Shown here in pieces: positions 5,724 to 26,362 of a stretch of DNA of 43,726 nucleotides (position 1 is the stretch's first letter; every line of letters begins with the position of its first letter). Source of the stretch: Bartonella tribocorum (GTDB taxonomy: Bacteria > Pseudomonadota > Alphaproteobacteria > Rhizobiales > Rhizobiaceae); contig NZ_NJPP01000002.1 of assembly GCF_002778015.1 (NCBI RefSeq), positions 69,365-113,090 on the forward strand, written 5' to 3'. The position numbers were made by a program, and so were the translations under genes. Below the pieces are notes generated by a model. It did not search any database. It was given only the letters and a program-made list of their open reading frames with translations, and was not told the origin of the DNA.

Positions 5724-7817
5724 TTATTTCCATTGACCAGAAAGCAGGTCAGTTTTTATATCTATTTTCCCAGTGAGTCTTGCTTTGTAGACACCGTAAT
5801 TTTCCATGACACGCATCACGTAATTGCGTGTTTCAGTATAAGGGATACGTTCAATCCAATCAATGATGTTATCGAGAGATTGTCCTCGAGGATCGCCATA
5901 ACGTTTGATCCATTCATCGACCCGACGGGGACCTGCATTATAGCCAATAAGAGTTAGTATATAAGATCCATTAAAACGTTCTAATTGTTCATTGAGAAAA
6001 TGGGCCCCTAATGTCACATTATAATGAGCATCACTGCTGAATTTTTTATAAGACCATGCGATTGAATATTTTTTTGCGAGTGCTTTTGCTGTGGTAGGAA
6101 GCAATTGGAGTATGCCTTGTGCACCTGCTTTTGATATGGCTGTTGGATTAAATTCGCTTTCTTGGCGTGCAATAGCATAGATAAGCGATTTTTCTTCTAT
6201 AGAAATATGCGCAGAAGCTGGTATAGCTCCTAAAGGATGAGAAAGCGCTCCGACATTTTTTCCCTGAAGAGCAGCCATTTTTCCGATTTTGAGGCTGGTA
6301 TAATAGTCACCATTTTTTTCTGCCATAACAGCCAGAAGGGCTAATTCACCGGGGCTTTCTATTTTTTTCCCAAGTTCTCTATAAAGAACTTTAGCAAAAT
6401 CAGCATATCCGGCTTCTTCAAGACGTTGAATTGCTTTGATCACTTTTCGTGCACTAAAATGTTGTCGCTCAGCGATGGTTGGTTTAGGAAAAGAAATATT
6501 AAGCTTTTTTTGGTTGAGTCGCGCAGCAGCTAATTGACCATAATACGTTGCACCAAAATGAGCTGCGCGATAAAAGTAATGCTGGGCATTTTTGTGTTCT
6601 CCTAGCGTTTCTGCTGTTCGTCCCATCCAATAATATCCACGTGATGCAGAAAAAGGTAAAGAAGAGAGTTGAGGAATGCGTGAAAAATGCTGCATTGCCA
6701 ATTTAGGGTTATGAAGAAACCGTAGCGCATACCATCCTGCATGAAACTCTGCATCGACAGCTAATGCAGATGTCATACCAGTGTGCTTTACAACGAGTTG
6801 ATAAGCCATTTGGGGTTTGTTTAAATCAAGCATCTCGCGAGAAAGGGCGCGTTGTTCTTTCCACAATGAATGAGGGTTCATAAGATGGAATGTATCTTTT
6901 GATGTTTTCATCATGAGCATTGCGGCGGCATCATATTGCTCTGTTCGGCGAAGATGGCGCATTCGAGCAAACTGGAAGAGAGGATCTTTTTTCCATGTTC
7001 TCTCTACAGCTTGTAACTTTTGTGTCGCTTTAGGATCATTTTTTTCAACGGCCACAAAAGCATCAAAAAGAGATTGAGCATGAGCTAATTTTGCAACGCG
7101 TGCCGCTGAATCAAAACGATGTGTATACAGCATAAACTGCATGCGTTTTAAATGATCAATAGGTTTTAAGGCCGCACTTGCATTTTTAAGAACAAACACT
7201 TCTTCTTTTTCATTAAGCCGTGTTTTATGCCACCACGGTGCAATAATGTGTTGAGCACGGGTGATTTGTCTTGTTGCAATAAGTGCTTTAACAAAGAGAG
7301 CCATGCCTTGTGCTGTGAGGGGGGGATGATGAGAAAATTTTTGGATAATGGCGCCTGTGACATTGGTTTCGTTAAGAAAAGCACGTTCAGCATTGCGTTG
7401 CATCGTTTCTATACCAGGCCATCCCTTTAGCATGTTGATAGCATTATATATTTCAGAACTTGGTATATTATCTTGGTTTGATAGCCCCAGCGCCCATGTC
7501 AAAATATGACGATCAAGGCTATGTTTTTCCATTGAATTACGCAAGTTTATTGTTTTTGCAATATTTTTGTTGGCAAGGGCATCTAGCCCAGCTTTTAGTT
7601 GCTTGAGTGTTGCAGTATTGTGCAATATCGTGCGTCTTTGCTGAAGCGGTTCTTGAGTTTTTTGTTTGATCGTAAGGGGGGTAGGGCGTGCTGAAGGGAT
7701 TGTTGCTTTCCCATGTAAAAGCGGTGTTTGTGCATAAGCACTTGAAAATAAAATTCTTATTGCCAGTATAAGTGCAGTAAAGGTTGATACGAAAAGAGAG
7801 GTGGAAAATACACGCAT
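5724..7817 (-). CDS. slt: Soluble lytic murein transglycosylase (Slt70-like, GH23)
   Basis: Periplasmic enzyme that cleaves peptidoglycan between MurNAc and GlcNAc, forming 1,6-anhydro-MurNAc ends. The first part is a long alpha-helical, TPR-like superhelix; the C-terminal catalytic SLT domain has ARQESEFNPTAISKAGAQG with the catalytic Glu at residue 553, ILQLLPTTA, GYNAGPRRVDEWI and the closing ERIPYTETRNYVMRVMENY. The frame opens at TTG 7850, but ATG 7817 is preferred because it places a clean signal peptide (MRVFSTSLFVS...SSAYAQ) at the N-terminus; the product is then 697 residues, in the normal range for Slt. AAGG lies about 14 bases upstream, a rather long spacing. It is divergent from dapA, and its 3' side faces the gene-free kilobase. 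Confidence 0.93.
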   Translation of the reverse strand: MRVFSTSLFVSTFTALILAIRILFSSAYAQTPLLHGKATIPSARPTPLTIKQKTQEPLQQRRTILHNTATLKQLKAGLDALANKNIAKTINLRNSMEKHSLDRHILTWALGLSNQDNIPSSEIYNAINMLKGWPGIETMQRNAERAFLNETNVTGAIIQKFSHHPPLTAQGMALFVKALIATRQITRAQHIIAPWWHKTRLNEKEEVFVLKNASAALKPIDHLKRMQFMLYTHRFDSAARVAKLAHAQSLFDAFVAVEKNDPKATQKLQAVERTWKKDPLFQFARMRHLRRTEQYDAAAMLMMKTSKDTFHLMNPHSLWKEQRALSREMLDLNKPQMAYQLVVKHTGMTSALAVDAEFHAGWYALRFLHNPKLAMQHFSRIPQLSSLPFSASRGYYWMGRTAETLGEHKNAQHYFYRAAHFGATYYGQLAAARLNQKKLNISFPKPTIAERQHFSARKVIKAIQRLEEAGYADFAKVLYRELGKKIESPGELALLAVMAEKNGDYYTSLKIGKMAALQGKNVGALSHPLGAIPASAHISIEEKSLIYAIARQESEFNPTAISKAGAQGILQLLPTTAKALAKKYSIAWSYKKFSSDAHYNVTLGAHFLNEQLERFNGSYILTLIGYNAGPRRVDEWIKRYGDPRGQSLDNIIDWIERIPYTETRNYVMRVMENYGVYKARLTGKIDIKTDLLSGQWK

Positions 7818-20712: not shown

Positions 20713-21330
20713 CTATAATTTTTGGACATCCAAGTCATTAAAGCGCGTTAAAAATGCGTTTTCAATTTGTTGGGTAGAGTAGGGGTGTAAATTAAGATCA
20801 TCGGATGAAATATTATTGGGAGAGCCAAAATAGCGAAGGGCTTCTTCTATATTAAATCCAGCAAGCATGATCGCTTCATGATATGCAGCAATACGATCGG
20901 CTTGTTTGATTTTTTTTAAAAGTTTTTGAGAAAGATCAACGGGAAGAGAAAAGCGCATATGGATCGCATCTTGGATGCACTTTTCAATGCGTTCATATTG
21001 TTTTCCTATGATAGCTTTAAAGGGTGAAATCATATCACCGATAACATATTCTGGTGCATCATGAAGAAGAGCACAGAGACATTCATTTCTCGGCGACTGT
21101 GGAAAAAGTTTTTGAAATATTTGTTCGACCAAAAGTGAATGTTGTGCAACAGAATAGGCATGCTCTCCTCGTGTTTGACCATTCCACCGTGCCACACGAG
21201 CAAGTCCATGGGCAATATCTTCAATTTCAATATCAAAAGGAGAAGGATTGAGAAGATCAAGTCTGCGTCCAGAGAGCATTCTTTGCCAAGCGCGTGCTTC
21301 TCCACTTTTTAATAATTCAGCTTTAGCCAT
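20713..21330 (-). CDS. HD-domain hydrolase, YfbR-like (putative 5'-nucleotidase)
   Basis: Metal-dependent phosphohydrolase of the HD superfamily. HD ligands are visible in GEHAYSVAQHSLLVEQIF, in LLHDAPEYVIGDMISPFK and in the later Asp of KKIKQADRIAAYHEA. This layout resembles E. coli YfbR 5'-deoxynucleotidase, with the N-terminal AWQRMLSGRRLDLLNPSPFD typical of an alphaproteobacterial subgroup. It has 205 residues. The ATG overlaps the end of the upstream YgfZ-like gene by 8 bp, so the pair is translationally coupled. The substrate is unproven. Confidence 0.85.
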   Translation of the reverse strand: MAKAELLKSGEARAWQRMLSGRRLDLLNPSPFDIEIEDIAHGLARVARWNGQTRGEHAYSVAQHSLLVEQIFQKLFPQSPRNECLCALLHDAPEYVIGDMISPFKAIIGKQYERIEKCIQDAIHMRFSLPVDLSQKLLKKIKQADRIAAYHEAIMLAGFNIEEALRYFGSPNNISSDDLNLHPYSTQQIENAFLTRFNDLDVQKL

Positions 21331-22195
21331 GTGTATTTTCTACAGTATTTTCAGGAAAGGTAAAATTCATATTTTCAGCAATATGTATGGTGACAGGAAT
21401 GTTTTTGACGCTAAAGGGAATGTTATGATCCATAGTATCTTTGACATGGTCAATACGCATTAAAGCAAGAGCCTCATTTGCAACACATGTTGCCAAGTGA
21501 CCAAGTACTTTTGTTCCTGCTGCAATGCTCGATTGAGGGGGGAGATCAAACTGACTTTTTATAATTAAAATACGGCGGCGTATAGCGCGGCGATGGTGCA
21601 TTCGTGAAACAATTTCTTGTCCAATATAACACCCTTTGTTGAATGCAAGTCCATTGATTTGATCATAATTAATATCATGAGGAAAGACTTTGCCAATTTC
21701 ATAGTCTTGACCACTTTCTGCAATTGCATAACGGATACGCAATTGATTCCATGGGGCATAATCTTCTGAAGCTAAAAAAGGGACTTTGCCGTAGATTCGG
21801 ATGATTTTTTCTTGTTGTGGGAAGCGTTTATCAACAAAATATGAATCAAAATTTAAAGTATCTGATTCATTTTTCCAAGAAACGGTGACAATCTCTTGTA
21901 ATGGTTGTATAATTTCTACTTTTTTACGCAGTTTATAGAGCAACAGACGCTTGTAGAGTATATCAGCCAAAGACATCACAATATCAATAAAATAACCATC
22001 CTCTCTTTTTCCGATAAGAAAATCAGCAAGAACCTTTCCTTGTGGGGATAAGAGGGCTCCAGGGAAAAGTCCTTGGGGAGTAATTTTTTTGACATCTGTT
22101 GTGATCAGGGATTGTAAAAAATCTGTTGCTTCTTCACCTGTAATTTGAATAATTCCACGGTTTTTTAAGCAAATGGCGTTTGGTTTTTCAATCAT
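21323..22195 (-). CDS. ygfZ: Folate-binding YgfZ-like protein (GcvT-related, Fe-S cluster maintenance)
   Basis: Family proteins bind tetrahydrofolate and support repair or assembly of certain Fe-S enzymes. The diagnostic YgfZ motif is present as KGCYIGQEIVSRMHHR; upstream are GIIQITGEEATDFLQSLITT and LSPQGKVLADFLIG of the GcvT-like fold. ATG 22195 is chosen (AAAGG about eight bases upstream; 290 residues); the frame is open from TTG 22216. It is divergent from the dihydroorotase-family gene across 65 bp, and its 3' end overlaps the HD hydrolase. A link with Fe-S demands of the heme/iron lifestyle is inference. Confidence 0.9.
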   Translation of the reverse strand: MIEKPNAICLKNRGIIQITGEEATDFLQSLITTDVKKITPQGLFPGALLSPQGKVLADFLIGKREDGYFIDIVMSLADILYKRLLLYKLRKKVEIIQPLQEIVTVSWKNESDTLNFDSYFVDKRFPQQEKIIRIYGKVPFLASEDYAPWNQLRIRYAIAESGQDYEIGKVFPHDINYDQINGLAFNKGCYIGQEIVSRMHHRRAIRRRILIIKSQFDLPPQSSIAAGTKVLGHLATCVANEALALMRIDHVKDTMDHNIPFSVKNIPVTIHIAENMNFTFPENTVENTHG

Positions 22196-22260
22196 GGTTC
22201 TTGCCTTTCTGCTCAAAGTTCCATAATCGATAAGTGAGCAATATGTAAGGAGCTTGGCCT

Positions 22261-23589
22261 ATGTTTAAAACATTTGATACAATTTTTAAAGGTGCAACAC
22301 TTGTGAATCATGATGGAAGAAGCAAGCGTGATATTGGTGTGACAAATGGCCGTATTGCTGCAATTGGCGATCTTACATGTGTTTCGGCTGGTGAGGTGAT
22401 TGATTGTACGGGGCTTCATATTTTGCCGGGAATTATTGATAGTCAAGTGCATTTTCGTGAGCCAGGCAATGAATATAAGGAGGATTTAGAAAGTGGATCG
22501 TATTCTGCGGTGTTAGGAGGGGTTACAGCAGTGTTTGAGATGCCTAATACCAATCCATTGACAACATCAGAAGAAACATTAAGCGATAAGGTTAAGCGCG
22601 GATTTCATCGAATGCATTGTGACTTTGCATTTTGGGTTGGAGGAACGCGTGAAAATGCTCATGAACTGTCTGAGTTAGAAAGACTTCCTGGTGCAGCGGG
22701 AATTAAAGTTTTTATGGGGTCTTCTACCGGAGATCTTTTGGTCGATGATGATGAAAGTGTACGTCTTATTTTGAAAAATACACGCCGTCGTGCAGCTTTT
22801 CATTCTGAAGATGAGGAAAGGCTCAAAGAGCGTAAAGTGCTGCGTATTGAAGGGGATGCATCCTCGCATCCCATTTGGCGTGATGAGATTGCAGCGTTAA
22901 AGTGTACGCAGCGTTTGGTAAAAATTGCCCATGAGACGAAAGCACGCATTCATGTATTACATCTTTCGACAGAAGAAGAAATTGATTTTCTAAAAAAACA
23001 TAAAGATATTGCAACAATTGAAGTGACACACCATCATTTGACTCTTACGGCGGATGATTATAAGCAGTTTGGTACATTAATTCAGATGAATCCACCTATT
23101 CGCGAATCGCGCCACCGTGAAGCCCTTTGGTATGGTGTTCAACAGGGGATTATTGATGTTTTAGGCTCAGATCATGCGCCTCATACCCTTGAGGACAAGC
23201 TTCAATCTTATCCCTCTTCACCTTCAGGAATGACAGGAGTACAAACAACAGCAGCAATTATGTTGACACATGTGAATGCAGGAAAGATATCCCTTGAGCG
23301 TTTTGTTGATCTCACGTCACATGGCCCTAGTCGTATTTTTGGTATAAGCTGTAAAGGACGTCTTGCTGTCGGATATGATGCTGATTTAACCATTGTTGAT
23401 CTGAAGCGTGAAGAAATTATTACGAATGGCTTAATTGGTTCGCGTGCCGGCTGGACACCTTATGATGGCCAAAAGGTCAAAGGTTGGCCTGTCGGGACTA
23501 TTATCCGTGGTATGCGCGTTATGTGGGAAGGTGAAATTGTCACACCTTCACAAGGAGAGCCTATTAAATTTATAGAAACTTTGGTGTAA
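22261..23589 (+). CDS. pyrC: Dihydroorotase-family amidohydrolase
   Basis: Cyclic amidohydrolase; annotated relatives interconvert carbamoyl-aspartate and dihydroorotate in pyrimidine synthesis. In 442 residues, the likely metal and catalytic positions are His64 (DSQVHFREPG, 60-69), Lys149 (GAAGIKVFMG, probably carboxylated), His181 (FHSEDEERL), His231/His234 (HVLHLST) and Asp304 (LGSDHAPHT). The first His of the usual HxH pair is Gln62 here. The C-terminal composite domain ends with the usual PYDGQKVKGWPVGTIIRG. AAGGAG lies upstream of the ATG. Rhizobiales commonly also have a pyrC beside pyrB, so this copy could be the working enzyme, a paralogue with another substrate, or one with altered metal content. 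Confidence 0.85.
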   Translation: MFKTFDTIFKGATLVNHDGRSKRDIGVTNGRIAAIGDLTCVSAGEVIDCTGLHILPGIIDSQVHFREPGNEYKEDLESGSYSAVLGGVTAVFEMPNTNPLTTSEETLSDKVKRGFHRMHCDFAFWVGGTRENAHELSELERLPGAAGIKVFMGSSTGDLLVDDDESVRLILKNTRRRAAFHSEDEERLKERKVLRIEGDASSHPIWRDEIAALKCTQRLVKIAHETKARIHVLHLSTEEEIDFLKKHKDIATIEVTHHHLTLTADDYKQFGTLIQMNPPIRESRHREALWYGVQQGIIDVLGSDHAPHTLEDKLQSYPSSPSGMTGVQTTAAIMLTHVNAGKISLERFVDLTSHGPSRIFGISCKGRLAVGYDADLTIVDLKREEIITNGLIGSRAGWTPYDGQKVKGWPVGTIIRGMRVMWEGEIVTPSQGEPIKFIETLV

Positions 23590-24850: not shown

Positions 24851-26362
24851 ATGATGAGTAAGTTGCGACTTTATAATACGCTGACACGTAAAAAAGAAAA
24901 TTTTATACCAATAGATCCAACAAAAGTGCGTCTTTATGTTTGTGGCCCAACAATTTATGATTACGCACATATAGGAAATGCACGTCCTATCATTGTTTTT
25001 GATGTTTTATTTCGCTTATTACGTCATGTTTATGGCAATGATCATGTTTTATATGCGCGTAATATTACAGATGTTGATGATAAAATTAATGCACGAGCTG
25101 CTTGTGAATATCCAAATTTGTCACTGAATGACGCTATTCGTCAATTAACAGAACGCACATATTCTCAGTTTCAACAAGATACAATAGCGCTTGGTTGTCT
25201 CTTGCCAACCAGTCAACCACGTGCCACCGAGCATTTAGAGGAGATGCGCGTGCTCATCGAAAAATTGCTTGAAAAGGGGCATGCTTATAAAGCGGAAAAT
25301 CATATATTATTCTCTATAAATAGCATAAAAAATCCTCCCCATTATGGGGCATTTGCAAATCGTTCTTTAGATGAAATGAGGGCGGGCGCACGTATTGATG
25401 TTGCTGCTTATAAAAGGGAGGAGATGGATTTTGTTTTATGGAAGCCTTCTGTAGAAGGAGAACCAGGTTGGGAATCGCCGGGCGGAATTCCTGTTTTAGG
25501 TCGTCCAGGTTGGCATATTGAATGTTCTGCCATGTCAATGGCGAAGTTATTGGCTCCCTATGGTGGTGGTTTAACTTGTGATGATCCGATTGCAAATATT
25601 TTTGACATCCATGGGGGTGGACTTGATTTAATTTTTCCTCACCATGAAAATGAGATTGCACAAAGTTGTTCAGCTTTTGGGACAGAGCGAATGGCTAATT
25701 TTTGGATGCATAACGGCTTTTTACAAGTTGAAGGTAAAAAGATGTCAAAAAGCTTTGGCAATTTCATAACCATTCGTTCTGTATTAGAAAATGATTTTTT
25801 GGAATTTAATGGTGTTTTAGCCGATGAAATGAAGCAAAATTGGGCGGGTTTGTCTGCACGTTTTTCAATGCTTCAAACGCATTATCGTGAACCATTAAAT
25901 TGGACAGCACAGCGTTTAATGCAATCGAGCAGTGAACTGTATCGTTGGTATGAATTGCTTCGCAGTAAAAAGAGTATGATGGAAAACAATGAAGCGCTTG
26001 AATATACTTTAATAGATGCCCTCAGTGATGATCTTAATACGCCAAAAGCATTAACTCTTTTGCGAAAATTTTATAAAGCAGACGATGTTTTGGCTCTTGC
26101 GAATGGCATGAATTTATTAGGACTATTACGACAAGACTGGATTAAAGCAATAGATTGCCCATTATTTATAAAAAAAACGTCTCTTGATTCAAAATTTATT
26201 GATCAGTGCATTGCCGAAAGACTGCGGCTTATCCATAATAAAGAGTGGGAAGCTGCGGATAAAATTCGCAATGAGCTTGCAGCCGAGGGGATTCTCTTAA
26301 GAGATAGTAAGGATTCGCAAAGTGGTAAGCGTATAACTGTGTGGGAAATCAAACGACTCTAA
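24851..26362 (+). CDS. cysS: Cysteinyl-tRNA synthetase
   Basis: Class I synthetase that charges tRNA-Cys. Zinc and HIGH-type motifs occur together in [18 protein letters not shown]; further features are WHIECSAMS (Cys ligand), [20 protein letters not shown] and the KMSKS loop [13 protein letters not shown]. 503 residues is somewhat long for CysS (about 460-500), with an insertion around [17 protein letters not shown], common in alphaproteobacteria. The start is ATG-ATG at 24851 with GGAG just upstream; the second ATG (24854) is equally possible. The DUF421 gene follows 45 bp later. Confidence 0.96.

Follow-up and report, generated by a model that had tools for sequence, protein, structure and literature searches.

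A glutamine in place of the first histidine of the HxH motif marks a clade of dihydroorotases that includes PyrC of Bartonella tribocorum

The stretch of DNA analysed here (the window) comprises 43,726 nt from Bartonella tribocorum. It carries a dihydroorotase gene, pyrC, of the PRK09060 type I family at 22261..23589 on the forward strand, an open reading frame that starts with ATG and encodes 442 aa. Profile searches identified a divergently oriented YgfZ-like gene (TIGR03317) at 21323-22216 on the reverse strand and cysS (TIGR00435) at 24851-26362 on the forward strand, 1.3 kb downstream of pyrC. Among 80 alphaproteobacterial loci, ygfZ was found near pyrC in all 80 and cysS in 62.

Translation and alignment placed the motif DSQVHFREPG at residues 60-69 of the protein (22438..22467; this and all following residues are on the forward strand). 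Gln62, encoded by CAA at 22444-22446, takes the place of the first histidine of the HxH metal motif (D60-S-Q62-V-H64-F-R-E-P-G69). This substitution had been noticed in a sequence-only reading of the same DNA, in which the residue numbers of the motif were right but the coordinates, 22441-22470, were one codon late. The second motif histidine is His64 (22450-22452). The remaining ligands, which that reading had described as intact, were indeed so when aligned with 2GWN and related families. They are Lys149 (22705..22707), which aligns with the lysine of 2gwn and 7uof and which we take to be the carboxylated bridging ligand; His181 (22801..22803) and His234 (22960..22962), presumably both ligands of the beta metal; and Asp304 (23170..23172), the assumed catalytic base and alpha-metal ligand. 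Arg66 (22456-22458) and Asn96 of MPNTNP (22546..22548) also matched in these alignments; from knowledge of the family we take Arg66 to be the residue for the substrate carboxylate and Asn96 to be a further substrate residue. Measured against a strict two-metal HxH definition, the window protein has five of the six ligands, with glutamine for the first histidine. The corresponding E. coli set is His16, His18, Lys102, His139, His177 and Asp250 (PMC2770081).

The window protein scored 788.1 bits over its full length against NCBIfam NF006559, the PRK09060 dihydroorotase equivalog (cut-off 482), which exceeds the score of every other family listed for it. Pfam gave Amidohydro_1 and, weakly, Amidohydro_3. 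An AlphaFold2 model made from a 16-row alignment (pLDDT 90.3, pTM 0.92) had 2gwn as its best PDB match in Foldseek (E 8.8e-46, TM 0.93). In VIA-align the model and 2GWN gave Z 53.1 and rmsd 1.9 over 432 residues, tied with the L-hydantoinase 1gkr at Z 53.5. Both lists are evidence of fold only and say nothing about metals, and the modelled fold alone would not separate a dihydroorotase from a hydantoinase or allantoinase. The different substrate that had been suggested for the protein is unlikely in view of its intact substrate residues and its score against the equivalog.

The dN/dS ratios between the window pyrC and eight Bartonella relatives were 0.050-0.091, so the Gln protein is under strong purifying selection. 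Five named Bartonella records, including B. queenslandensis and B. tribocorum, were 97% identical at pyrC. Decay of the gene was ruled out by the intact ligands, the identity to these nearest relatives and the low dN/dS. Glutamine stood at the motif position in 79 of 80 close relatives, where the codons were CAG in 50, CAA in 29 and CGG (Arg) in one. Since both CAA and CAG are present across the relatives, a sequencing error at the Gln codon was also ruled out. The exception, L072 from Brucella cytisi, has CGG at 6184-6186 where its relatives have CAG; it is a single genome, and the arginine is either a real variant or a sequencing error. Gln62 is a genuine substitution of long standing and looks functional.

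The same residue was present in all 40 PRK09060 rows, which represent 36 different genes besides that of the window (row L101), three rows being repeats (L145, L146 and L148). Thirty of 32 PRK09060 genes over the cut-off were fetched, and the 91 PRK09060 genomes over the cut-off were counted only, with the residue unread. In the PRK09236 family glutamine occurred in 25 of 26 rows, the exception being L195 with histidine. The other seven scored residues were identical across all these PRK09060, close-relative and PRK09236 rows. The earlier proposals of a specific substitution rather than decay, and of a glutamine that is clade-wide, are both borne out.

A tree of 68 rows was built with the Gln column removed beforehand and without cyanobacterial PRK07575 members. 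It united PRK09060, PRK09236 and 2GWN in one group of 43 rows (41 with Gln, one with Arg and one with His) with support of 99/99, and HxH rows were placed around this group. Gln62 therefore marks a large, well-supported dihydroorotase clade and is not a private oddity. The histidine row belongs to a PRK09236 dihydroorotase with HxH on one IMG/VR contig of 136,864 bases (L254/L195, L254 being the longer record), a natural His counterpart of the Gln enzymes. Within the PRK09236 part of the group L254 is the first to branch, and it retains all of the eight other residues characteristic of the Gln clade. His and Gln thus occur in enzymes that are otherwise alike, and glutamine is not tied to a remodelled pocket. 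Glutamine was also found in L197 and L198, which belong to a separate PRK09059/PRK09357-like group and branch there one after the other. The fewest Gln/His changes on the tree were four, with gains and losses indistinguishable. Outside the main clade, glutamine thus arose at least once more; two separate gains are not certain, since a single gain with later reversion to histidine would also fit.

Some records deserve comment in their own right. The PRK09060 gene of L074 (74% identity) resembles those of Brucellaceae, although the record bears the title Bacillus subtilis SK6B4; the assembly is probably mislabelled or contaminated. Two PLSDB 'plasmids' with a dihydroorotase-like gene, L249 (Listeria, 2.9 Mb) and L250 (Fusobacterium, 2.1 Mb), are chromosome-sized.

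Two genes in the window's genome matched the TIGR00857 profile. The second lies at C78:40090-41292, next to pyrB, the aspartate carbamoyltransferase gene (TIGR00670, 314.6 bits) at C78:41403-42296. The sequence-only reading had expected such a neighbour of pyrB, and it is present. The pyrB-side copy reads DARVFVGEPG, MPDT and VSSHDP, with Arg, Phe, Gly, Asp, Glu, Gln and Ser at the seven scored ligand and substrate positions, and it keeps none of the five scored metal positions (the Lys position was left unscored in pyrB-side copies because intact members of that family are also without Lys). The idea that this copy is the real enzyme was rejected on account of the lost metal residues, and we consider it a pseudo-dihydroorotase, PyrX. 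In Pseudomonas aeruginosa, pDHO is described as an inactive pyrB-side partner of the carbamoyltransferase (PMC7053772). In Sinorhizobium meliloti the pyrB-side smc01361 was proposed to be an inactive PyrX, with an essential PyrC elsewhere, and its disruption also gives pyrimidine auxotrophy (PMC5929573). No pyrC_dimer gene (TIGR00856) exceeded the cut-off in a profile search of the window's genome. Because the other TIGR00857 gene is without ligands and no pyrC_dimer passed the cut-off, the Gln protein is the only candidate dihydroorotase found in its genome. Outside the window, C1:18340-18953 of the same genome has two weak TIGR00670 stretches and 7 in-frame stops, and looks like a decayed carbamoyltransferase gene.

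These results bear on the proposal that a pyrC beside pyrB covers pyrimidine synthesis and has freed the window copy to become a paralogue with another cyclic-amide substrate, or to decay. The adjoining pyrC-like gene is real, as that proposal needs, but we find the scheme scarcely credible: the residues at the seven scored positions of the pyrB-side gene, the Arg66 and Asn96 kept by the Gln protein, its low dN/dS and the eight clade residues retained by the HxH member L254 all stand against it. The copy that was supposed to be redundant is the only candidate found.

The distribution of dihydroorotase types was surveyed in 190 alphaproteobacterial genomes. PRK09060 (E<=1e-85) was found in 92 and pyrC_dimer (E<=1e-60) in 38. 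The two occurred together in one genome, G401 (Fisher p 9e-12, ignoring kinship), and 61 genomes had neither. A PRK09059 match (E<=1e-40) was present in 126 of the 190, at least three of which (G415, G460 and G514; E about 1e-42 to 1e-43) were probably matched through the PRK09060 gene. In genomes with PRK09060 or pyrC_dimer, none of the 39 PRK09059-type copies examined had the ligand set; these were the 30 genes behind the 31 best-scoring rows plus nine picked, out of about 110 such copies, and linkage of this type to pyrB refers to the window's own genome only. In genomes with neither, the ligand set was complete in five of 11 copies examined, all five in genomes 93-100% complete, which rules out that PRK09059-type copies are always dead. 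Two of the five intact copies carry QxH (L197 and L198), and each is the only TIGR00857 match in its genome (G063 and G371). Two of the genomes with an intact copy, G467 and G540, contain additional, weaker TIGR00857 matches beyond the copies examined. Five of the six copies without the ligand set came from genomes 71-84% complete. G512 (99% complete), with a PRK09059-type copy that lacks the ligand set and other TIGR00857 matches of 200, 179 and 22 bits, is a real exception. A twelfth genome with neither enzyme, G552, yielded only a fragment and was left out of the 11. We read this pattern as suggesting that a cell needs one intact dihydroorotase and that glutamine is compatible with being that enzyme.

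The window protein would accordingly interconvert N-carbamoyl-L-aspartate and dihydroorotate as the only dihydroorotase found in its genome. We infer this activity from the family, the sole-candidate status and the intact Arg66 and Asn96. A two-metal centre is most likely still held: the beta metal would be bound by His181 and His234, a carboxylated Lys149 would bridge, and the alpha metal would be bound by His64, Lys149 and Asp304. Gln62 may act as a weak ligand through its side-chain oxygen or may merely lie adjacent to the metal. An ordinary dihydroorotase with two metals, its activity argued from sequence and its metal state from the two zincs of 2GWN, is the explanation of the Gln62 enzyme that we consider probable.

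According to PMC3880350, every known type I or type II dihydroorotase has its alpha site formed by HxH. A published table, from which the 2GWN zincs are known here, lists that structure as type I with Zn(alpha,beta) and cacodylate and gives no peer-reviewed description of it (PMC12524618). As 2GWN has the same glutamine and is listed with zinc at both sites, Gln need not abolish a two-metal centre. The altered metal content that had been proposed for the window protein finds no support in this entry, whose metal could stem from purification or crystallisation. A literature search, with most subscription papers beyond its reach, turned up neither activity nor metal data for any PRK09060 enzyme, and no discussion of a Gln ligand. 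E. coli NagA, with QxN for HxH, has metal at the beta site only (PMC3880350), and on this precedent the alpha site of the window protein might be empty, with the beta metal alone catalysing. One-zinc dihydroorotases are reported from Aquifex and Staphylococcus aureus, there with the beta site empty (PMC3880350). We regard a one-metal enzyme as improbable, because all examined rows of PRK09060 and PRK09236 retain His64, Lys149 and Asp304, whose conservation would be unnecessary had the alpha site been lost, and because 2GWN is listed with both zincs. The sequence-only reading had set against its own view an ordinary two-metal dihydroorotase that is the only one in the genome; it is the only one found, and two-metal probably, not certainly.

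Another possibility is that Gln62 spares zinc. It would weaken or change the alpha site, so that less zinc, or a different divalent metal (Fe, Mn, Co), would suffice for activity, and the same property would have let the PRK09236 branch become a backup dihydroorotase under zinc starvation. PA5541 (PyrC2) is assumed here to belong to PRK09236, and its glutamine is taken from the family. PyrC2 has been called a Zn-independent paralogue (PMC4542158, PMC10393844), and a Zur-predicted PyrC without the conserved zinc residues is reported to have dihydroorotase activity (PMC2770081). On a Klebsiella plasmid (L150, NZ_CP125195.1) a Gln-type dihydroorotase with DDQVHFREPG lies among a repressor, a GTP-binding protein (used as the query for COG0523), dksA, folE2, carbonate dehydratase, a threonine-tRNA ligase-like gene, M14 peptidase and hemB. 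On the basis of PMC2770081 and PMC4542158 this would be a zinc-starvation-type cluster. Matching plasmid records numbered 1042, of which 573 were Klebsiella; they were not each checked.

The PRK09236 cut-off was passed by 22 of 398 genomes of the phylum, all outside the window's class and presumably gammaproteobacteria, and all 22 fetched genes have Gln. Eleven of the 22 genomes also have pyrC_dimer. Homologues of the GTP-binding protein, carbonate dehydratase or FolE2 lay near the PRK09236 gene in 11 of these 11, three of which (L238-L240) had only a weak GTP-binding match of 38-46 bits, and near three of the 11 genes in genomes without pyrC_dimer (flanks of about 6 kb, or less in the case of L220, L221 and L235). 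The contrast weakens if DksA-family matches count, which raises the latter group to 8/11, or if only matches above 100 bits count, which leaves 8/11 in the pyrC_dimer group. Matches to CysRS, paralogues of which are among Zur-linked families (PMC2770081), occurred near four of the 22. Of the 11 PRK09236 genomes that lack pyrC_dimer, 10 have no TIGR00857 match (E<=1e-25) other than the Gln enzyme, which is therefore no backup there. The eight zinc-cluster query proteins had no match in any of the 80 alphaproteobacterial loci (flanks of 6 kb, or less in the case of L015 and L081) or in the window; the window gene, unlike a Zur-controlled zinc-sparing PyrC2, is not located with zinc-starvation genes. 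The two zincs listed for 2GWN (PMC12524618) also speak against zinc sparing. In a 2025 preprint one method gave a PyrC2 change of 0.434 (p 0.423) and the other did not detect the protein, so that its induction was not significant in that source (PMC11761036). Zinc sparing is possible, but we doubt it. Because members inside and outside zinc-starvation clusters share the glutamine, it is not tied to such clusters.

Only one of six ligands differs in PRK09236 as aligned, so if PyrC2 belongs to the family, 'zinc-independent' becomes a testable hypothesis about a single residue. The HxH rule fails for an entire clade, to which the sole dihydroorotase of many alphaproteobacteria apparently belongs. 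More speculatively, the exchange of His for Gln could be a switch that evolution can throw repeatedly, making dihydroorotases less demanding or less selective in their metal. It would have founded a low-zinc clade, used as sole enzyme by many alphaproteobacteria and recruited elsewhere as a zinc-starvation backup, with one or more further origins among PRK09059/PRK09357-like enzymes, where the gene is the genome's only TIGR00857 match. We think this rather unlikely.

Among known systems, the window protein is a member of NF006559 (PRK09060) with no difference found. Taken together with its sole-candidate status and the two-metal explanation, it is quite probably an ordinary dihydroorotase of a known family. 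Porphyromonas gingivalis 2GWN shares with it QVHFREPG, the aligned Lys, His, His and Asp and the whole fold, but is 34% identical and groups with PRK09236 in the tree. The sister clade is PRK09236, with dihydroorotases from other Pseudomonadota and from the Klebsiella plasmid cluster. It has QxH (25 of 26 rows) and keeps the other scored residues, and the members measured are 33-35% identical to the window protein. Some of its genes adjoin zinc-starvation-type genes, whereas the alphaproteobacterial genes do not. PyrX (PyrC') beside pyrB is homologous and occurs in the same genome, but its metal residues are lost; the window gene keeps its ligands apart from the first His and lies on contig C12, away from pyrB on C78. 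In E. coli NagA, too, Gln replaces the first HxH histidine (PMC3880350), but this enzyme has also lost the second His (QxN), acts on a different substrate and holds one metal.
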